NCBI GenBank assembly: GCA_005888315.1
Contig: VAWH01000024.1
Span: 1-64,000, forward strand
Reading direction: 5' to 3'
DNA: 64,000 bases
DNA from: Actinomycetota bacterium
GTDB taxonomy: Bacteria; Actinomycetota; Thermoleophilia; Gaiellales; Gaiellaceae
Under the pieces are notes generated by a model. That model did not search any database, was not told the DNA's origin, and worked only from the letters and a program-made list of their open reading frames with translations. Both the position numbers and the translations under genes were made by a program. Numbering within the stretch: position 1 is the first letter of the stretch; the number at the start of each line of letters is the position of its first letter. Shown here in pieces: positions 16,767-42,063 of this stretch.

Positions 16767-16863
16767 AGTCGTTGGATGGTAGCCACAGCTTCGGAGGCCT
16801 CGCGGGTAGCGTTTTCGAGCGCGATCTTCGATACTCAGGGTCCTCACTCAAGGAGGCGAACAG

Positions 16864-27010: not shown

Positions 27011-27016
27011 AAGCTA
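27011..27016 (-). promoter_or_regulatory. Possible leaderless -10 box, nth
   Basis: TAGCTT on the minus strand ends 8 nt before GTG 27002; its first three bases are the addA stop codon. Confidence 0.4.
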
Positions 27017-30000
27017 ACCGACGGCGATCTCTGCCGGGCTCGACGCCTCGGCCCGCTGATGCAGACGCGGCCCTGCGCAGACGACGTCGAGGGCAGGGCA
27101 GCCGGCACAGATGAACTCGCTCGGCGTCGGGGTGAAGACACCCTCCTGGATCCGAGCGATCGCCTCGGAGAGCTCGGCCTCGAGTCCCGGAAGCTCGGAC
27201 AGGTCGAACGTCGTGCCGACGGCCGGATCGGGCCGCTCCAGGAATTGGTAGACGACCTCGACCTCCTCGAAGCCGGCCCGGAAGCAGGCCAGCGCGTAGA
27301 CGAGCCGCTGGAGACGGTAGTCGCGCTCGATCAGCTCCTCCGGCGACGTCTCCTCGAGGACGTTGGTCTTGTAGTCGACGACGAGGGCACGCCTTCCGTC
27401 ACGGTGGAGGACGTCGAGGCGGCCGTGCAGGAGGACGCCGTCATGCTCGAAGGCGAAGGGCCGCTCGGGCGCCGCGCCCGGAAGCGCGGCGACGCGCGCG
27501 GCCAGCTCCGAGTCGCAGTAGGCGGCCACGAGCCCGGCGATGCGCTCGAGCTCCTCGTCGGTGGCCGCGGGGTAGCGTGCCCGTACGGCTTCCGCAAGAG
27601 CCTCCCGCTCGGGAGGCCGTGGGGCGAGGAGATCGAGTGCTTCGAGCAGGAAATGGACGCTGTCGCCGATCTCGGTCGCGGCTAGCCCCTCGTGCCCCGG
27701 CACAGAGCCCGCGGCGTCGCGCGGACGCATGCCCGCGACCCGCTCGGCGTAATAGCGATACGAGCACGAGTCGTAGAGGGCGAGGGCGCTGTACGAGAGG
27801 CTGCGGACGCGATGCAGCGGAGGCTCCCGGACCGGCTCGAGCGCCGGGAGCTTTGGAGCCACCGGCAGCGCCGGCTCGGCGCCGTTCGAGTCGAAGAGCA
27901 CCAGCTGCCCGGGCTCTGCCGCTTCGGCGGGAGTGGGAACCGGCGCTTCCGGCCGGTAGCGGTCGAGCCGCAGCAGGATCCGCGCCCCTCCGCGCTCGAG
28001 CTCGACCGGCCCGCCGGCGGCCTCGTCGAACGCCGGCAACTCGAGGCGGCCGAGCACCCAACCGATCGGCGTCCGCTCGTCCGCGGCCTTTTCGGGATCG
28101 ATCGAGCCGGCCACGATCAGCCGGTCGACGGCGCGCGTCATCGCGACGTAGTAGAGGCGGCGCCGCTCGGCCTCGGCCTCCTCGCGGCTGGCGGCGCGCA
28201 CCTCCTCGTACGCAGTCGTCGGCTTGCGGACGCCGGTGGCAGGGTCGGCGACGCGGAAGCCGAACCGGCCGTCCGGCAAGGCGAGGATCTCGTCCGCACC
28301 CGGAGCCGCGCGGTCACGGCCGGCGTCGGCGACGACGACCACCTTGAACTCGAGGCCCTTGGCGGCGTGGATCGTCAGCAGCCGGATGACGTCGGCGTCC
28401 TCCTCCTCCGCCACCGCCTCGAGCTCTTTCGCCCCCGCCTCGTCCTGCTCGCGGACGAAGCGGACGAAGCCTTCGATGTCGGCGCCTCGCAGCTCCTCGT
28501 ACGAGCGTGCGAGCCGCGCCAGCTTGCGCAGGTTCGCGTAGCGGCGCCGCCCGTCCCATTGCGCGAGGACGGCAAGGTCGTAGTCGTGCGCGGCGACGAT
28601 CTCTTCGCAGAGCCTCTCGAGCGAGAGCGTGCGCGAGGCGGCGACGAGGCGCTCGAAGCGCTGGCGGAAGGCCTGGAAGAGCCGCTGATCCCGTGGCTCG
28701 AGACCTTCTGGAAGTGTGCGCTCGAGCCCCTTGTAGAGCGGCCGCTTGGACGCAGCGCGGCGCAGGAGAACGAGCGCGTCGTTCGAGACGCCGACCAGCG
28801 GCGAAGCGAGCACGGTCACGAGCGCCTCGTCGTCATAGCGGTTGTGCAGGAGGCGCAGGTAGGCGAGCAGGTCGGCGACCTGCTGCTGACCGAAGTAACC
28901 GCGGCCGGTCGTCCGGTAGGTCGGCAGGCCGAGCTCGCGCAGCTCCTGCTCGTACCACTCGGCGTCGGTCCCCGCGGCGAAGAGCAGGACGATCTCGCCC
29001 GGCTTCGCGGCGCCCGTGTCGACCAGCTCCTTGACCCGCCGGGCGACCGAACGTGCCTCGCCGCGGCGCCAGTGCGTGCCCGTGCCGCTGTAGCTCGCCT
29101 TGTCGGTGACGAGCAGCTCGACCGGTGTTCCGAAGACGGGATCGGGAAAGTCGCCCGAGGCGGCGAGCGACTGGAACTCATGTCCGAAGTCGGAGCCGAA
29201 GAGGTGATTGACCGCGGCCAGGACCTCCGGCCGGGAGCGATAGTTGAGCGTCAGCGGCAGCACCGAGCCCGCCTCCCCGCGCCGCTCCCGGAAGACGTTC
29301 ACGTCGGCGTGGCGGAAGCCGTAGATCGACTGGAACTCGTCGCCGACGAAGAACAGCTCGTCGCCGGCAATCAGGTCGACGAGGTCGCATTGAAGGCGGT
29401 TGGTGTCCTGGAACTCGTCGACCATGACGGCGCGGAAGCGCCAGGCCTCGCGCTGCTTGATCTCCTCGTGTTCGCGCAGCAGGTCGCGCGCGTTGAGCTG
29501 CAGGTCCTCGAAGTCGACGCCGGACTCGCGCTCCTTGGCGCCCGCGTAGGCGCGCGTGAAACCTTCGAGCAGCTCCTGGAGCAGGTCGCGGTCGCGCTTG
29601 GCCAGCTCGTCGAGCGCCGCCTGCTCGACTGCTTTTCGGGCGGCCTCATAGCTCTCGAACCGCTCCCGCGGGCCGCCGCGGGTCGCGAGCTCGGAGAGGT
29701 CGAGCAGGTCTTCCGCCTGCCGGTCGCCCTCGAGCAGCTCGAGCATCCGCGCCGCCTGGGCGCGCTGCTCCTCGTGGCCCTCCTCGTCGACGAGACAGCG
29801 CGCCGCCTCGCGGAGGGCTTCGACCCGCTGTGCCAGCGCCGGACCCTCGCCGAGACGCAGGTCGAGCGGCCTGCCAGCGGCGCGAAGCGTCTCATAGACG
29901 CCGGTCAGCATCCGCCGCAGGCCGCCGGCGCCGTACGTCGCGAGGAGCCGCAGGCGGCGCGGGTCGTCGCCCGCGCAGAACTCGCCGAGCGCCTCCTCGA

Positions 30001-30448
30001 ACGCCTCGCCGCGCAGCACCCGCGCCTGGCTGTCGTCGAGGACGCGGAAGCGGGGGTCGAGCCCCGCCGCGAACGGATAGGTCTTCAGCAGCCGGTGGCA
30101 GAAGCCGTGGATCGTCGAGATCCAGGCGCCGTCGAGCTCGCGCGCGAGGTCGTCCCGCCCGCGGTCGAGCAGCTCGCGCCGGATGCGCCCGCGCAGCTCC
30201 CCCGCGGCGCGCTCGGTGTACGTGATCACGAGCACGGAGCCGACGTCGAGCCCCTCGTCGCAGACCGCGTTCGCGAATCGCTCGACGAGGACGAGGGTCT
30301 TGCCGGTGCCGGCGCCGGCGGAGACGAAGACATGGCCGCGGGCCTCGATCGCCGCGCGCTGCTCCGGATTTATCCGCGAAAAATGCTGGGCATTTTCCGC
30401 GGGGCCGGCATGTCCCTTCACTTCGCTCGGGAGACTCGAGTTTTTCAT
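27014..30448 (-). CDS. addA: AddA-like helicase-nuclease (UvrD family)
   Basis: 1144 residues. Helicase motifs: Walker A GAGTGKT (45-51), motif II DEFQDTNR, QSIYGFRHAD, and TIHAAKGLEFKVV. The C-terminus has a PD-(D/E)XK nuclease (GRLDVLHRDGRRALVVDYKT). With AddB it resects double-strand breaks for RecA. ATG 30448 overlaps the addB stop as ATGA and has AGGAG upstream. Oddity: residues ~17-28 (AGPAENAQHFSR) are encoded by a 29-nt palindrome that recurs at 37846-37875, so a palindromic element appears to lie inside the coding region. Confidence 0.9.
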   Translation of the reverse strand: MKNSSLPSEVKGHAGPAENAQHFSRINPEQRAAIEARGHVFVSAGAGTGKTLVLVERFANAVCDEGLDVGSVLVITYTERAAGELRGRIRRELLDRGRDDLARELDGAWISTIHGFCHRLLKTYPFAAGLDPRFRVLDDSQARVLRGEAFEEALGEFCAGDDPRRLRLLATYGAGGLRRMLTGVYETLRAAGRPLDLRLGEGPALAQRVEALREAARCLVDEEGHEEQRAQAARMLELLEGDRQAEDLLDLSELATRGGPRERFESYEAARKAVEQAALDELAKRDRDLLQELLEGFTRAYAGAKERESGVDFEDLQLNARDLLREHEEIKQREAWRFRAVMVDEFQDTNRLQCDLVDLIAGDELFFVGDEFQSIYGFRHADVNVFRERRGEAGSVLPLTLNYRSRPEVLAAVNHLFGSDFGHEFQSLAASGDFPDPVFGTPVELLVTDKASYSGTGTHWRRGEARSVARRVKELVDTGAAKPGEIVLLFAAGTDAEWYEQELRELGLPTYRTTGRGYFGQQQVADLLAYLRLLHNRYDDEALVTVLASPLVGVSNDALVLLRRAASKRPLYKGLERTLPEGLEPRDQRLFQAFRQRFERLVAASRTLSLERLCEEIVAAHDYDLAVLAQWDGRRRYANLRKLARLARSYEELRGADIEGFVRFVREQDEAGAKELEAVAEEEDADVIRLLTIHAAKGLEFKVVVVADAGRDRAAPGADEILALPDGRFGFRVADPATGVRKPTTAYEEVRAASREEAEAERRRLYYVAMTRAVDRLIVAGSIDPEKAADERTPIGWVLGRLELPAFDEAAGGPVELERGGARILLRLDRYRPEAPVPTPAEAAEPGQLVLFDSNGAEPALPVAPKLPALEPVREPPLHRVRSLSYSALALYDSCSYRYYAERVAGMRPRDAAGSVPGHEGLAATEIGDSVHFLLEALDLLAPRPPEREALAEAVRARYPAATDEELERIAGLVAAYCDSELAARVAALPGAAPERPFAFEHDGVLLHGRLDVLHRDGRRALVVDYKTNVLEETSPEELIERDYRLQRLVYALACFRAGFEEVEVVYQFLERPDPAVGTTFDLSELPGLEAELSEAIARIQEGVFTPTPSEFICAGCPALDVVCAGPRLHQRAEASSPAEIAVG
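30374..30402. repeat. Palindromic repeat inside addA, copy 1
   Basis: Arms 30374-30386 (CCGCGAAAAATGC) and 30390-30402 (GCATTTTCCGCGG) pair over 13 positions with one mismatch around a TGG loop. A second copy is at 37846-37875. On the addA strand it encodes ENAQHFSR. Confidence 0.8.
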
Positions 30449-33384
30449 GGTCTCCTCACCCGGCACATGCGCCAGAGCTCGCACCAGGGCGGGCAGTCGC
30501 CGCCCTTCGGGTCGTGCCGGACATCGCCGTCGCGGATCCGTTCGACGAAGCCGCGCGCGAGCTCGCCGGCGCGGTCGACCTGGCCCCAGAACGCCTCCTC
30601 GTCGAGGTAGTCGTTGCGCGAAAAGCCCGGGACGCCGTCCTCTTTCGCCTCGGCGCGCAGCAGCCCGCGTGCGTCACGCTTGCCTGAGAGGGCACGGTAG
30701 ATCCCGCCGAGAGGCTCCACGCCCACGAGGTCGCGCAGGACGAGCATGTAGAGCGGGATCTGCAGCTTCAGCTCGGACTCGATCTGCGCCGCTGAATGCG
30801 CGGTCTTGCCCGACTTGTAGTCCTGGACGATCCCGCGGGCGCTGAAGGGGTCGAGATCGATCCGGTCGATCTTTCCCGAGAGCGTGAACGTGCCGAGATC
30901 GAGACCGCGCTGGAGCTCCTGGGCCGAGCGCTCCGAGCCGAACGAAACCTCGAACCGCCGCGGCACCAGCTGCAGCTCCGAGGCGGCCTCGTCGCGGAGG
31001 AAAGCCTCGAGGTCGCGGAGCAACCCCTGCTCGAGCTCCCGCCGCTGCAGGTCGGTCAGCTCCATCCGGACGCCCGCCATCGCCTCGGCGAGGCACTCGC
31101 GCACGAACTCGAGCGCGTCGTCGAGCTGTTCGGGCCCGAGCTTTTCGACGCCGAGCCGCTTCGGGACACCGGCGAAGAACTTGTGCAGGGCACTATGAGC
31201 GACCTGGCCGCGGAGGCGCGGGTCGACGACCTGGTCGATCGTGCGCGGCCCGATCAGCCGATCGACGAACCAGATCGACGAGCAGTCGGCGAAGGTCTCC
31301 AGCTCGGTGACGCCGAAGCTCGTCTTCGCGCGGAGCTCCTCGAGGACGAGCGGGTGAGTCAGGCGGGTCGGACGCTCGAAGGCCCGTAACGCACGGTCGA
31401 GCCGCCGCTCCCAGCCGTTCGCCTGCGCCAGAGAGCGGCTCGCGCCTTCGTCGAGAGCCGCCAGCGAAGCGACTGCGCGCAGTCGTTCGCGCTCGGTCGG
31501 CGCCTGCTCGACCGGCCAGGTGAGCGCGGAGAGCGGCCGCCGCGTCGTCGTGCGGCGCACCTCGTCCTCCGAGAAGAGGTCGCGAACCTCGTCCCAGAAC
31601 GGGCTTGCCTCGCGCGGGCCGCCCTCGTCGTTTGCCGCCTCGCGCACGAGGTACAGCCGCCGCGTCGCGCGCGTGCAGGCCGTGTAGAAGAGGTAGCGGT
31701 CGCGCGCCACGGCGTCCGGCTTCGCGAGCCGCGAGCGGCGCAGACGCGAGTCGAGCTCGCGAGCGGTCTCCTCGTCGAGGAACGGCGACGTCTCGCCGCG
31801 CCGCGGCAGCGTTCCCTCCTCGAGGCCAAGCACGAAGACGACCTCGTAACGGCGCGTGCGCGCGCGCAGGAGATCGACGACGTCGACCCGCCCGGCTTCT
31901 CCCGCGCCGGCCGCGCGCACGGAAACGCGTTCAACGGCTGCGACGATCTCGTCGGGAGTCAGCGAGCCGCCGAGAGCGAGCCAGCCCTCGAGCTCGTCGA
32001 CGAGCCGGGTCAGGGCCTCGAAGGCGCGCAGATCCTGGCGGGATTCCTCGCCGACCGGCGGGGACTCGAGCCCGTGGGCGGCGCGGAGCATGAAGCGGGA
32101 GAGGTCGCGCAGCGCCGCGAGCGGCGTCTGCGCCTTGCGGAGGAGCTCGAGCGGGGGGAGCGGGTGTCCGTCGCGGAGCCGCATCGTCTCCTCTTCCGTC
32201 CGCTCGCCGGTCTCGACGGCGCGGCCCCGGAGCCGACCTTCGATCCAATCGACGCTCGCGCGGGCGAGACCCGAGTAGGGGGAGCGCAGGAACCCGTACA
32301 GCATTCCGCGGCCGCCGCCCTGCCAGGCGAATCGAAGCAGCGAGAGCAGGGCGCGCCCGAACTCGGTCTGATCGAAGCGGATCCGACCTTCGATCGCATA
32401 CGGCACACCGAGGGAGCCGAGCGCGGTCTCGAGCGGCGCGCGGTAGCGCTCGACGCGCGGACAGACGAGTGCGATCTCCTCCGGCGGGGTTCCGCTGCGG
32501 ATCAGCGCGAGCAACTCTTCGGCGACTCGCTCGAGAACGCCGCGTCGGCCGGCGCCCTCGAAGAAGCGGAGGGCGCCGTCCAGCGCGACGCCGCGCTCGT
32601 CGGGATCGCGCTCGTCCGAGAAGAGCGACCGCTCGAGGTGCGCGAGCGCCGGAGGCCGGACCTCGGGCCGCGGCGGTAGCTCCTCGATCCGCGGCCGCGC
32701 AAGCGAGGACAGGTCGGCGGCCGTGCGCTCCAGCGACGCGAAGGCCGGGCGTCCCGGCTCGTACGGGAGCGAGACCGTGACCTCAGCGCGGCCGGCGAGC
32801 GCCTCGAGCAGCGCCCACTGCGCACCGGTCAGATCCTCGAAGCCGTATGCGAACACGGGGCGTCTCTCCCACGCTCCGAGCTCGCCGGCGAGCCGTTCCG
32901 CCGCCGCTCGCCGCTCGAGGTCGCGATCCCAGAGCCCGAGGCGGTCGAGTTCCGCGCGGTACTCGGCGTAGAGCCCGGCGAGATCTCCCTCAAGCTCCCC
33001 CGGGTCGACGAGCCCGGACTCGAGCTCGCCGAGGGCGGACGAAAGCGCGTCGGCGAAGCCGGCGAAGCGCGCCGACCGCGTCCAGCCGTTCAGGCGCGCT
33101 TCGCCGAGCGCGCGCCGGACGATCAGGGCGCGCTGCGCGTCTGTCGCGACGGGGCGGTGCTCGCCGCCGTCTCGCGCGAGCCGTCTGAAAAGGTCGTCGA
33201 ACGTCCCGATCTCGCCGCCGAGCAAGGCTCCGCTCGACGCCAGGAGCTCGCGCTCGACTCGGTCGACGTCCGACCGGTTCGGCACGATCAAGAACGGCTC
33301 GTCTGCAAGCGCCGACAGGTAGCGCTCGAGCAAGAGCGCCACCTTGCCCGCATTCGCGGGCCCCGCAAGCAGCGTGAGGGCCAT
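30445..33384 (-). CDS. addB: AddB-like nuclease/helicase-related subunit
   Basis: 979 residues. It begins with a degenerate nucleotide loop (AGPANAGK) and inactivated helicase-like domains. It ends in a RecB-type nuclease: AHSALHKFF, GKIDRIDLD, VQDYKSGK. Four Cys frame the nuclease as in iron-sulfur AddB proteins: one in TFADCSSIW and three in DCPPWCELWRMC near the C-terminus. It partners AddA in double-strand break resection. ATG 33384 has TAGGAT exactly 6 nt upstream, so the addBA message appears leaderless. No LexA box is seen. Confidence 0.85.
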   Translation of the reverse strand: MALTLLAGPANAGKVALLLERYLSALADEPFLIVPNRSDVDRVERELLASSGALLGGEIGTFDDLFRRLARDGGEHRPVATDAQRALIVRRALGEARLNGWTRSARFAGFADALSSALGELESGLVDPGELEGDLAGLYAEYRAELDRLGLWDRDLERRAAAERLAGELGAWERRPVFAYGFEDLTGAQWALLEALAGRAEVTVSLPYEPGRPAFASLERTAADLSSLARPRIEELPPRPEVRPPALAHLERSLFSDERDPDERGVALDGALRFFEGAGRRGVLERVAEELLALIRSGTPPEEIALVCPRVERYRAPLETALGSLGVPYAIEGRIRFDQTEFGRALLSLLRFAWQGGGRGMLYGFLRSPYSGLARASVDWIEGRLRGRAVETGERTEEETMRLRDGHPLPPLELLRKAQTPLAALRDLSRFMLRAAHGLESPPVGEESRQDLRAFEALTRLVDELEGWLALGGSLTPDEIVAAVERVSVRAAGAGEAGRVDVVDLLRARTRRYEVVFVLGLEEGTLPRRGETSPFLDEETARELDSRLRRSRLAKPDAVARDRYLFYTACTRATRRLYLVREAANDEGGPREASPFWDEVRDLFSEDEVRRTTTRRPLSALTWPVEQAPTERERLRAVASLAALDEGASRSLAQANGWERRLDRALRAFERPTRLTHPLVLEELRAKTSFGVTELETFADCSSIWFVDRLIGPRTIDQVVDPRLRGQVAHSALHKFFAGVPKRLGVEKLGPEQLDDALEFVRECLAEAMAGVRMELTDLQRRELEQGLLRDLEAFLRDEAASELQLVPRRFEVSFGSERSAQELQRGLDLGTFTLSGKIDRIDLDPFSARGIVQDYKSGKTAHSAAQIESELKLQIPLYMLVLRDLVGVEPLGGIYRALSGKRDARGLLRAEAKEDGVPGFSRNDYLDEEAFWGQVDRAGELARGFVERIRDGDVRHDPKGGDCPPWCELWRMCRVRRP

Positions 33385-37299: not shown

Positions 37300-37806
37300 T
37301 CAGTCCACGCGGTAGGCCATCAGCACCGCGTCGAGGAGGCGGCCGCCGCGACGAAAGTGGTTCCGCCGCGTGCCCTCGCGCTCGAAGCCGAACTGTTCGT
37401 ACAGCTTGATCGCAGGCTCGTTGTGCGGGAAGACGTGCAACTCGAGCTTCTCGATCCCGCTTTCCCGGGCCCACGCGACCGCTTGCTCGAGCAGCGATCG
37501 CCCGATGCCGCGGCGCCGGTGGCCCGCCGCCACCATCAGCCCGAGATCGGCTACATGGGCGCTCGCGGGATGCGAGTCGCGGGCGAGGGACAAGCGGGCG
37601 ACGATGCCGCCCCCGTTCTCGACGACGAAGACGGCCGCGTGCGGGGAACGCCGAACCGCGCGTAGGTAGCGGCGCTCCTCGCCGACGTTGCGCCAGTCCC
37701 CCTCGGTGATCAGCCAGGCCTCGGGCTCCGAGCTGACAGCCCGGCCGAGCTCGACGAGGGCCGCAGCATCGGCGGGTATGGCACGCCTAATCGTGTAGGT
37801 GTTCAT
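37300..37806 (-). CDS. GNAT N-acetyltransferase
   Basis: 168 residues. The acetyl-CoA site is VADLGLMVAAGHRRRGIGRSL, followed by ELHVFPHNEPAIKLYEQFGFEREG, typical of GNAT enzymes acting on small amines or peptides. The substrate is unknown. ATG 37806 has GGGAGAG a few bases upstream, so this gene uses a ribosome-binding site. It lies between ggt and dedA on the same strand; the palindromic repeat at 37846-37875 separates it from ggt. Confidence 0.85.
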   Translation of the reverse strand: MNTYTIRRAIPADAAALVELGRAVSSEPEAWLITEGDWRNVGEERRYLRAVRRSPHAAVFVVENGGGIVARLSLARDSHPASAHVADLGLMVAAGHRRRGIGRSLLEQAVAWARESGIEKLELHVFPHNEPAIKLYEQFGFEREGTRRNHFRRGGRLLDAVLMAYRVD

Positions 37807-37845
37807 CTCTCCCGAGCGCAGCGATGGGCGTTACCAGACGCGGAA

Positions 37846-37875
37846 CGCGATGGAAAATGCACAGCATTTTTCGCG
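37846..37875. repeat. Palindromic repeat after ggt, copy 2
   Basis: Arms GGAAAATGC (37852-37860) and GCATTTTTC (37864-37872) around an ACA loop, extended by CGCG on both sides. It starts 2 nt after the ggt stop on the minus strand and matches the element inside addA (30374-30402). Here it could act as a bidirectional terminator, because each arm ends in a short T or A run. Confidence 0.78.
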
Positions 37876-37876
37876 A

Positions 37877-39454
37877 CTAAACGACGATTCCGTGGCCGTC
37901 ACGGCGGGGATCGCCGGCCGCGTCCAGGGTGCCGTCCTCTCGCAGCTCGACCGCCGCAGCGCCTCCGAAGTAGAGGTTCCGCCGCCGCCAGCGCACCAGC
38001 TCGTACCCGCGCTGCTCGAGCCGATCGAGCTCCGCCGGGTCGAAACCACCCTCGCAGTGGACCTGCCGTCCCTCCAGATGCACTCGCGGCTGCCCGATCG
38101 CGGCGCCGACCTCCATCCCGTGCGCGGTGACGTTGAGGACGAGCTGCAGGATCGCGCCCCGCAGGCGGATCGAGCCCGCGCTGCCGACGACGAGCCGCGG
38201 CCGCTCCCCCTCGAGCACGATCGACGGCGCCATCATGCTCGTCAGGCGCCTGCCGACGGCTGCGCGCTGATTACCGCGCCCGATCGGGTTGAGGTCGTAC
38301 TCGCCAAGCATGTTGTTCAGGTGGATGCCGGTCCCGGGGACGATCACACCCGAGCCCGAGCCGTTCGAAGCGGTCAACGAGGCCGCGTTGCCCGCCGCGT
38401 CGACGACGGAGATGTGCGTCGTCCCCGGCGCGCCGACCGACTCCTCGGTGGACGCCAACCCGGATTCGAGATCGCGAGCCGCGATCCGCTCAGCGGCCTC
38501 ATCGGCGCCGGCAAAGAGACGCTTCGGCAACCCGCCGCGATAGAGGTCGCCTACAAAGCTGCCGCCACGCGCGAGCGTCTGCTCCCGCATCACCTCGGCC
38601 AGCCGCGCGATCGCCTCGGCGCTCCCCGGCGGCCCTCCGGGCCCGAGGCGGGAAAACAACAGGAGCGCGTAGGCGATCAGCGTTCCGCCCGACGACGGTG
38701 GCGGGTTGGAAACGAACGCGCGCGCGCCGAACGAGGTTCGAATCGGCTTGCGCGTGATGACCCGATATGCAGCAAGGTCCTCCTCGGTCAGGCTGCCACC
38801 CTCCTCGCGAACGTGCTCGCAGACGCGGCGGCCGAGCTCACCGGCGTAGAACGCCTCCGCCCCGCTTTCGGCGAGCTGCTCGAGCGTGGCAGCGAGATCC
38901 GGCATCACGAGCCGGTCGCCCGCGACGAGCGGAACACCGCCCGGGCCGAAGATCTCGTGACCGATCTCCGTGCGCCGCAGGATCAGATCGAGGATGCCGT
39001 GCAGGTAGGCCTGCGCCGGGACGAGTTCGTGCCCGTCGCGGGCAACCGCAATCGCCGGCTCGAGCAGGCGGCGCCACGGCAGCCTCGCGTACGCGCGATG
39101 CGCCGCCTCGAGCCCGGCGATCGCACCCGGCACGGCGCACGAGGCGCCCCCGACACGAAAGATCTGTGAGGTGCCGCGGTCGAACTCGACGTCGACCAGA
39201 TCCATCTCGCGGACGGGGCGCTCGACTCCGTGGCCGGGAATCGCGACGAAGAAATCGTGCAGACGCACCTTCCCGGTCGAGGCCGCCCGGACGAGCAGGA
39301 AGCCACCCCCACCCGGGCTGGTGAGCGTGCTTTCCGTGACCCACGACATGAACGCTGCGGCGATGCACGCGTCGACCGCGTTGCCTCCCTCGCGCAGCAC
39401 CTCGGCACCCGCCTCGGCGGTCAGTGTGTGCCCGGCCGCCACCGCGCCCCTCAT
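37877..39454 (-). CDS. ggt: Gamma-glutamyltransferase family enzyme
   Basis: 525 residues in one proenzyme chain. The autocatalytic nucleophile is the Thr in APGTTHISVVDAAGN (about residue 343), and the following SNGSGSGVIVPGTG and NNMLGEYDLNP match the small-subunit substrate loop. The family cleaves gamma-glutamyl bonds of glutathione-like compounds or processes acylated antibiotics. There is no signal peptide, so the enzyme seems cytoplasmic, unlike E. coli Ggt. ATG 39454 has TACGCT exactly 6 nt upstream. Confidence 0.88.
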   Translation of the reverse strand: MRGAVAAGHTLTAEAGAEVLREGGNAVDACIAAAFMSWVTESTLTSPGGGGFLLVRAASTGKVRLHDFFVAIPGHGVERPVREMDLVDVEFDRGTSQIFRVGGASCAVPGAIAGLEAAHRAYARLPWRRLLEPAIAVARDGHELVPAQAYLHGILDLILRRTEIGHEIFGPGGVPLVAGDRLVMPDLAATLEQLAESGAEAFYAGELGRRVCEHVREEGGSLTEEDLAAYRVITRKPIRTSFGARAFVSNPPPSSGGTLIAYALLLFSRLGPGGPPGSAEAIARLAEVMREQTLARGGSFVGDLYRGGLPKRLFAGADEAAERIAARDLESGLASTEESVGAPGTTHISVVDAAGNAASLTASNGSGSGVIVPGTGIHLNNMLGEYDLNPIGRGNQRAAVGRRLTSMMAPSIVLEGERPRLVVGSAGSIRLRGAILQLVLNVTAHGMEVGAAIGQPRVHLEGRQVHCEGGFDPAELDRLEQRGYELVRWRRRNLYFGGAAAVELREDGTLDAAGDPRRDGHGIVV

Positions 39455-41162: not shown

Positions 41163-42063
41163 GTGCGATGGCGAGCGTCCGCAGCACGTCGTGCATCACC
41201 GCGGGCGACCGGTTCGCGAAGCGGAAATCGAACTCGGCGAAGCCCGCGACGCCGCTCCTGATCCGCTCTTCTACATACGCCGCGCGCCAGGCGTTGACCT
41301 GCGCCCTCGGCCACCGGTGCACGTTGCCGCCGAGACCCGCCTCCAAGTGGTAGCCCGGCGTCAGTCCGGGCAGGTACCGGCGCGCGAGCGCACGCCGCAC
41401 CGGCCCGCCTTCAGCGAGTGCTCGCTGCCCTGATGCGTGCCTGCGCGCGGCTGCCCGCGGGTCGCCCTCGAAGCGAGGATACTCCTCGCCGACATACGCA
41501 AGCGCAGCGCGGTTGAGCGTTCGCCAGAAGGTCGTCAGTTCGGCCGTGATCGGCAGCCGCCCGATCGCGAGCCCCGTCCGTGCGACCCAGACGAAGCCGC
41601 GCATCGCGGTGTCGCCGAGGACAGGACGTCCAAAGACCAGCCCTCGGAGGACGCCCCGTATGAACTCTCGGATCGGCCCGCCCGCGGCCGCCGCGGCGCT
41701 CGGCACGATTTCGTCGAACTGCCAAGCATCGATCGTCGTGCCTTCGTCGACCGCTGCACGCACGAGATCGCGGTAGCGCTGCCCAAGCTCGACGCCCCAG
41801 GAGACGCGGGCCGAGGTCGAGCTGAGCCGGCGAAGCGGCGGCACTGCGCCGGCCAGGCGCTTCGGCACAAACGGCTCGTACTCGGGCGGCAGCCGCCGCC
41901 GCTGGCGAAACCAGTCCTCGTTCAGCGCGAACATCGGCGCGTAGCGGCCGCGCGCGAGTTCGGCGACCTGTCCGGCGACGGCGGCGTTCGGACCGTAGCT
42001 GCCGACGTACACGGCGACGTCGGCGGGTACGACCGTGCGGACCTGCGCCAGCAGGTTCGGCAC
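41101..42063 (-). CDS. Unknown protein, possible longer 5' end
   Basis: 320 residues from GTG 42063. The fold looks soluble: VPADVAVYVGSYGPN, TIDAWQFDEIVPSAA, and helical C-terminal parts. I do not recognise the family. The frame remains open up to about 42126 and reads RLLLLSYFEPKD just before the GTG. That looks like a first beta-strand, yet it offers no ATG, GTG or TTG; a CTG start at about 42087 would fit. It is downstream of ftsZ on the same strand with a short gap, so it may belong to the parA-ftsZ operon. Confidence 0.55.
   Translation of the reverse strand: MPNLLAQVRTVVPADVAVYVGSYGPNAAVAGQVAELARGRYAPMFALNEDWFRQRRRLPPEYEPFVPKRLAGAVPPLRRLSSTSARVSWGVELGQRYRDLVRAAVDEGTTIDAWQFDEIVPSAAAAAGGPIREFIRGVLRGLVFGRPVLGDTAMRGFVWVARTGLAIGRLPITAELTTFWRTLNRAALAYVGEEYPRFEGDPRAAARRHASGQRALAEGGPVRRALARRYLPGLTPGYHLEAGLGGNVHRWPRAQVNAWRAAYVEERIRSGVAGFAEFDFRFANRSPAVMHDVLRTLAIALSRSRSEGSPQRTRQTPGAR

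Follow-up and report, generated by a model that had tools for sequence, protein, structure and literature searches.

Mycobacterial MIRUs reportedly lie beside DTGA start/stop overlaps, as Supply et al. are said to have described in 1997. According to PMC12548453, MIRUs are short actinobacterial repeats that insert at start codons with a -4 nt spacing and occupy within-operon junctions, both cistrons staying readable. REP elements are placed by PMC3733652 mostly downstream of genes, as short palindromes just after stop codons that they at times supply, and sometimes in repair genes including recBCD and the UvrD/REP helicase; the same paper counts RPE-4 and RPE-6 as CGTC REPs without a dedicated transposase. 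REPs lying less than 16 nt from a stop codon downregulate translation in E. coli, according to PMC12306157. The RPEs of Rickettsia, as presented in PMC10969869, are about 150 bp long, lie in ORFs in nearly half of the cases and encode a conserved peptide.

The element described here, one copy of which lies in the addA gene of a Gaiellaceae genome, is judged from its behaviour and from published descriptions to represent a new family of two-hairpin palindromic, REP/MIRU-like repeats. Its behaviour most resembles that of mycobacterial MIRUs and REP elements, ahead of typical RPEs. With MIRUs it shares small size, an actinobacterial host, within-operon junctions and DTGA overlaps with both cistrons readable, while differing, as compared by description, in being a two-hairpin palindrome of Thermoleophilia with an orientation that is biased rather than fixed. 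Like REP/BIME palindromes it lies mostly just downstream of stops, which it sometimes supplies, and is found in a gene of the RecBCD/UvrD kind, but it mostly lacks a GTAG or CGTC tag, is absent from 12 inspected loci of RAYT-type (Y1_Tnp) genes and keeps a conserved order of two hairpins, H1 and H2, joined by a linker of the AAAC(C/T)AG type. Its likeness to RPEs is that a palindrome can sit within a gene without breaking the frame and so extend unrelated proteins by a peptide (AddA and the ends of EtfA, Iso_dh and a class-III aminotransferase); by description, however, it is about half their size (61-75 nt) and mostly intergenic, with 3 of 41 sites called intragenic (two of them doubtful), and its few in-gene copies sit at protein ends, the addA peptide not being conserved as protein. 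The original prediction had drawn the parallel with RPEs; because most copies are intercistronic with a biased orientation, RPEs are not the closest analogue, and MIRU-like or REP-like junction insertion is the better fit. Within the open-licence literature we found no earlier report of palindromic or intergenic repeat elements in Thermoleophilia or Gaiellales, a group in which a family of palindromic repeats, one copy of it inside the gene of a RecB-like repair helicase, is now documented. The addA case illustrates a protein extension tolerated after insertion, comparable to the REP-tagged repair proteins mentioned in PMC3733652.

A two-hairpin element and its host range

The window, that is the whole 64,000-nt stretch analysed, contains at 30374-30402 an imperfect 29-nt palindrome, its loop 3 nt long and one of its pairs an A.C / G.T. 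As originally described, its minus-strand translation gives ENAQHFSR within the AddA ORF, and its second copy in the window adjoins the ggt stop codon. The core AAAATGCNNNGCATTTT occurs at 30380-30396 and 37854-37870, both with 0 mismatches, against a chance expectation of 0.21 matches in the window with 3 mismatches allowed. In the genome from which the window comes (G000; 2.71 Mb in 117 contigs), there are 8 exact places of this core and 0 of the reversed control pattern; allowing up to 3 mismatches gives 12 places, one of which (C106) is not palindromic. The copy number is therefore far above two. Reading outward from the core places revealed that the palindrome, although real, is not by itself the repeating unit: it makes up just the right half of an element about 61-75 nt long. 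The full element is composed of hairpin H1 (CTCCC-GAGCGAAGCGA-GGGAG), a linker such as AAAC(C/T)AG, and hairpin H2, the 29-nt palindrome, with the form CCGCGGAAARTGC-NNN-GCAYTTTYCGCGG.

The exact location of the addA element is 30374..30434 on the minus strand, in line with an alignment of 14 copies, and our model R3 matches it at 30368-30439 (minus; 75 bits, E 7.8e-19). Its H2 occupies 30374..30402 (minus) and encodes AENAQHFSR, while its H1 (TCTCCC-GAGCGAAGTGAA-GGGA; 30413..30434, minus) was placed by alignment with other copies: folded alone the addA copy gives a different H1, and the H1 assigned there is based on covariation across copies. The second element, found by R3 and located exactly at 37807..37876 (plus), takes up all the space from the ggt stop to the start of a GNAT gene. 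A weak R3 match at 41192-41260 (12.2 bits, E 0.11) is possibly a decayed copy or a chance hit. A search of Rfam with 8 loci returned no family for the element, only one tRNA and two chance-level matches.

In an alignment of 88 copies, which come from many genomes, standard pairs fill 91.4% of the paired cells (shuffled mean 76.1), the covariation score of 0.393 (shuffled mean 0.112) is reached by 0 of 500 shuffles and by no slid control, and 17 of 20 pairs show changes on both sides; this alignment was fitted to the model, and these figures are biased towards it. The first alignment, built without structure, contained compensatory changes in 8 of 18 predicted pairs. Among orthologous copies, 26 double changes kept a pair and 4 broke it, in comparisons that are non-independent and at junctions some of which may hold replaced copies, and changes occurred at 12% of paired versus 24% of unpaired sites. 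Quasi-palindrome correction during replication can mimic such covariation. Exceptions across the pairs, two columns excluded, were G.T in 22 cases and A.C in 18, so that no strand preference is seen with one pair set apart. This one is the H2 pair beside the core (columns 60 and 81 of alignment A3; within 30374-30402 in the addA copy), where 41 of 88 copies have G.T and 1 has A.C; it favours the strand read from H1 to H2, antisense to most genes, and may reflect a founder effect or strand-specific recognition. All six frames are open in 16 of 61 copies (shuffle mean 8.4, maximum 15 in 40 rounds). Openness as an adaptation to genes was considered and found to be weak, the open consensus being matched by 25.5% of its own shuffles.

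The known range of the element is one family of the class Thermoleophilia, where every model match falls. With model R2 it was found in 15 of 31 genomes (G000 and its relatives), all of this family, whereas none of the 12 genomes that represent the order's other families had it; model R3 detected it in 41 of the order's 121 genomes and in 14 of 149 from the class, again only in this family. The genome itself has at least 16 sites with E below 1e-5, and three congeners have at least 44, 31 and 12 matches; close relatives span 11-44, and since scoring covered just some of the first-look candidates, all these counts are minimum values. Viral contigs yielded no element match. When 84,980 named genomes were scanned with a pattern, 34 stretches matched: Actinobacteria/Thermoleophilia MAGs account for 32 and a single Lachnospiraceae MAG for the other 2. 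To judge from their names, G001, G002, G003 and G012 are presumably soil MAGs. The two stretches of the Lachnospiraceae MAG (CASCGD; L153:6172-6228 and L155:4118-4175) are repeated hairpins whose GCGAGCGAAGCGA and AAAATGC..GCATTTT parts follow each other in an element-like order; they score just 21-22 bits with R2 and represent either convergence or a very distant relation.

The copy inside addA

The addA gene (27014..30448, minus; start ATG at 30446-30448) encodes a UvrD-like helicase with a PD-(D/E)XK nuclease, as identified by Pfam, and follows addB (30445..33384, minus), whose stop overlaps the addA start as an ATGA of the translational-coupling type (30445..30448, minus). The element takes up nt 15-75 of the addA ORF in frame and encodes most of residues 5-25. 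It lies 10 nt past the ATGA, in the orientation opposite to the usual one. The sister species G001 carries it at the same position, and the congener G003, whose AddA is ~94% identical to that of the window, has an empty site: in G003 only 12 nt separate the ATG from the N(P/T)(E/Q)Q asparagine, versus 78 with the element, a net difference of 66 nt or 22 codons. From 30 AddA loci, 27 orthologues were readable after setting aside L107 (contig end), L133 (no N-terminus) and L110 (no upstream sequence). Only G000 and G001 have the element, and it is missing in the other 25, outgroup genera included; it is therefore the source of most of the N-terminal extension of AddA, much as the original prediction had proposed, and the ENAQHFSR segment is not kept in distant AddA proteins. 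The AddA tree is weakly supported (43-50%), and with the N-terminus of G002 missing it does not fix the order of gain and loss in addA.

The Q-motif and Walker A are required in UvrD-like helicases. Neither ATG nor GTG nor TTG occurs between the element and the Q-motif/Walker A, nor, in G001, inside the element, and a functional helicase must therefore be translated through it. Between G000 and G001, element codons 5-26 differ by 2 synonymous and 7 nonsynonymous changes versus 57 and 8, respectively, in addA codons 27-200 (Fisher p 1e-4), indicating that purifying selection does not act on the element peptide; the apparent conservation of ENAQHFSR comes from that of the H2 DNA. An AlphaFold2 model of AddA residues 1-330, made with 9 sequences, had a mean pLDDT of 69.5 and values of 33-35 at residues 1-20, consistent with a loose N-terminal tail but, from so shallow an alignment, short of proof. 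Judging from the substitution pattern, the extension would be a tolerated passenger without new function.

This in-frame behaviour recurs beyond addA, though few sites show it and those lie at the ends of proteins. Element-encoded C-termini were identified in EtfA (L236:5955-6932; KNAAHFPRG), and element-encoded ends in an isocitrate/isopropylmalate dehydrogenase (Iso_dh, L267:3031-4125; ENAAHFPRV) and a class-III aminotransferase (L206:9986-11410; RKMRSIFRG), together with an element-encoded N-terminus, of uncertain start, in an alpha-amylase-family enzyme (L272:4043-5839). All element-encoded protein parts fall outside Pfam domains.

Stop/start junctions as the usual site

The stretches around copies in the genome and three congeners (70 copies of at least 40 bits, from 103 rows) reduced to 41 orthologous sites, each represented by its best copy; gene starts and stops, here as for the other genera and for the gap and stop-context counts, came from our own simple gene caller (92% coding), which places some starts wrongly (e.g. 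E23 and E45). At 26 of these sites the element lies between genes that both run opposite to its H1-to-H2 direction, and at 6 between genes that run with it; the rest are 5 between convergent or divergent genes, 3 called intragenic (two doubtful) and 1 at a contig end. Other genera contributed 37 further copies, from 82 rows after removal of duplicate records, echoes on the reverse strand and anything scoring below 42 bits, and these fell into the same classes as 22, 1, 9, 3 and 2. On the sense strand the common orientation reads stop codon, H2 (0-5 nt from the stop or containing it), H1 and start codon. Orientation is biased among the 32 co-directional sites (26 versus 6, p 5e-4), and 16 of them had a pre-insertion gap of at most 20 nt, such gaps making up 3.3% of intergenic insertion points (p 1e-16). 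Insertion is hence biased towards junctions, with both targeting and selection as possible causes. Concerning the original prediction of a dispersed palindrome inserting in frame, it holds for addA, which is an exception, since most copies lie between cistrons.

Stop context was counted in the 48 of 78 copies with a stop within -6..+16 nt. Upstream stops of the TGA type are part of DTGA at 26 of 28 sites versus 59% of background genes (p 9e-5) and of ATGA at 13 of 28 versus 17% (p 3e-4), with 5 of the 28 representing one L2-S19 junction in different genomes. Such a DTGA excess is the trace expected from insertion at start/stop overlaps. The second copy in the window is typical: it separates ggt (gamma-glutamyltranspeptidase; 37877..39454, minus), its upstream cistron, from the GNAT acetyltransferase gene downstream (37300..37806, minus), and G001 lacks it there, ggt and GNAT overlapping as GTGA. 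In the S10/spc operons of the genome and three congeners (L186, L208, L231 and L196), whose genes were named by reading protein ends, elements were observed at L23-L2, L2-S19, L14-L24 and S14-S8. These junctions are occupied or empty by species, and the same ribosomal junctions are filled in several genera. At L2-S19 the element is present in 8 of 30 genomes of the family and absent from the others examined; the occupied ones read DTGA-element-DTGA, several empty ones ATGA or TTGA. Even within genus g6, G008 and G054 are occupied while G066 and G074 are empty.

Two simple roles at these junctions were set aside after inspection by eye. Sequestration of a Shine-Dalgarno sequence by H1 (GGGAGA beside TCTCCC) is contradicted by GACCC/GGGTG variants and by downstream genes having their own ribosome-binding sites beyond the element; an intrinsic terminator is not supported, as elements are located inside ribosomal-protein operons and no T-run followed H2 in the junction copies seen.

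Mobility and competing explanations

The repeat family is mobile, with empty orthologous sites for several copies, that of ggt included. In 12 alignments of filled and empty sites no clean target-site duplication was visible, any duplication being unreadable because the junctions have diverged. The addA case is most probably one copy of a non-autonomous, dispersed two-hairpin repeat whose in-frame insertion added about 22 residues before the Q-motif. We propose that the repeat would spread as DNA via an enzyme supplied in trans, and that insertions would be kept wherever they leave the genes on either side readable, as at stop/start junctions, often DTGA coupling sites, or at the end of a protein that tolerates them, the AddA N-terminus being one. 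An action of the hairpins in mRNA is possible, and would be unnecessary for explaining addA. Recurrent ribosomal junctions together with compensatory changes could, on the other hand, mean host selection rather than passive persistence.

That the AddA segment is an ancestral part lost elsewhere, with its palindrome arising by chance, has next to no probability: its presence at the same position in two species would fit, but its absence from nearly all readable orthologues, outgroup genera included, and the near-identical repeats at unrelated loci do not. For an enzyme in trans, a REP-type element moved by a RAYT-type Y1 transposase comes to mind, given the palindromes beside stop codons and in RecBCD and UvrD repair genes described in PMC3733652 and the Y1_Tnp genes in 26 of 41 relatives, with 4 in the genome itself. 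This is unlikely. No mobilising enzyme was found, and 0 elements were seen at the 12 Y1_Tnp loci of relatives that were fetched, a subset of the Y1_Tnp matches; families f2 and f3 have Y1_Tnp and lack the element, G003 (an assembly 66% complete) has the element and no Y1_Tnp match, and tags are rare at the two element ends: of 78 copies, 0 and 1 carry GTAG there, and 7 and 4 carry CGTC.

A somewhat better, if still rather doubtful, prospect is MIRU-like coupling, in which the element inserts into DTGA overlaps and an internal mini-ORF relays ribosomes so that coupling survives. The DTGA and ATGA enrichment and the L2-S19 pattern speak for it, as do the start-codon insertions with -4 nt spacing described for MIRUs in PMC12548453. 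The H2 core contains RTG, and in the 41 of 78 copies with a scorable upstream stop and downstream start, frame 0 read from it ends -3..+4 nt from the downstream start in 17, versus 5 and 10 for the other two frames, which is suggestive; exact +4 overlaps, however, separate the frames poorly (12, 5 and 8 of 41). RTG is missing from several copies (AAAGTCC, AAATCC) or stops occur inside the element, the TGA sites count the L2-S19 junction repeatedly, and the addA copy is displaced from its ATGA and reversed. Comparable in weight, and thus tentative, is a host-functional intercistronic hairpin that is also mobile and would influence how the mRNA is processed, how long it lasts or whether ribosomes stall at the stop codon. 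It would account for the closeness of H2 to the upstream stop in most junction copies, for ribosomal junctions filled in several genera and for the lower rate of change at paired sites, and it would parallel the effect of stop-proximal REPs in PMC12306157. By contrast, selection on the mRNA strand predicts G.U above A.C, and the exceptions were nearly balanced; the one asymmetric pair favours the strand antisense to most genes, occupancy varies even inside one genus, and quasi-palindrome correction offers another source of covariation. A combined reading, of a family specialised in operon stop/start junctions, those of ribosomal-protein operons included, that would insert at coupling sites without damage to either cistron and whose hairpin and mini-ORF relay would replace direct coupling, with addA a mis-insertion a few nucleotides beyond such a site turned N-terminal tail, is likewise possible without being probable.

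Whichever process fills them, junctions that are occupied in one species and empty in another constitute a natural test of hairpin effects on operon expression, and so narrow a stop/start niche raises the question of how coupling sites are located by an element this small. A second repeat, GCGTCCTCAGTCGC..hairpin..CTCCCTGCGTCCTTG, was also observed at operon junctions, for example at L23-L2 in G059, G008 and G017, with a variant in G068. Its loci include L285, L286 and L291 among others, and in the genome itself it lies at L186:1871-1884 and 16837-16850; its 14-mer is present in 13 of the 313 examined loci.
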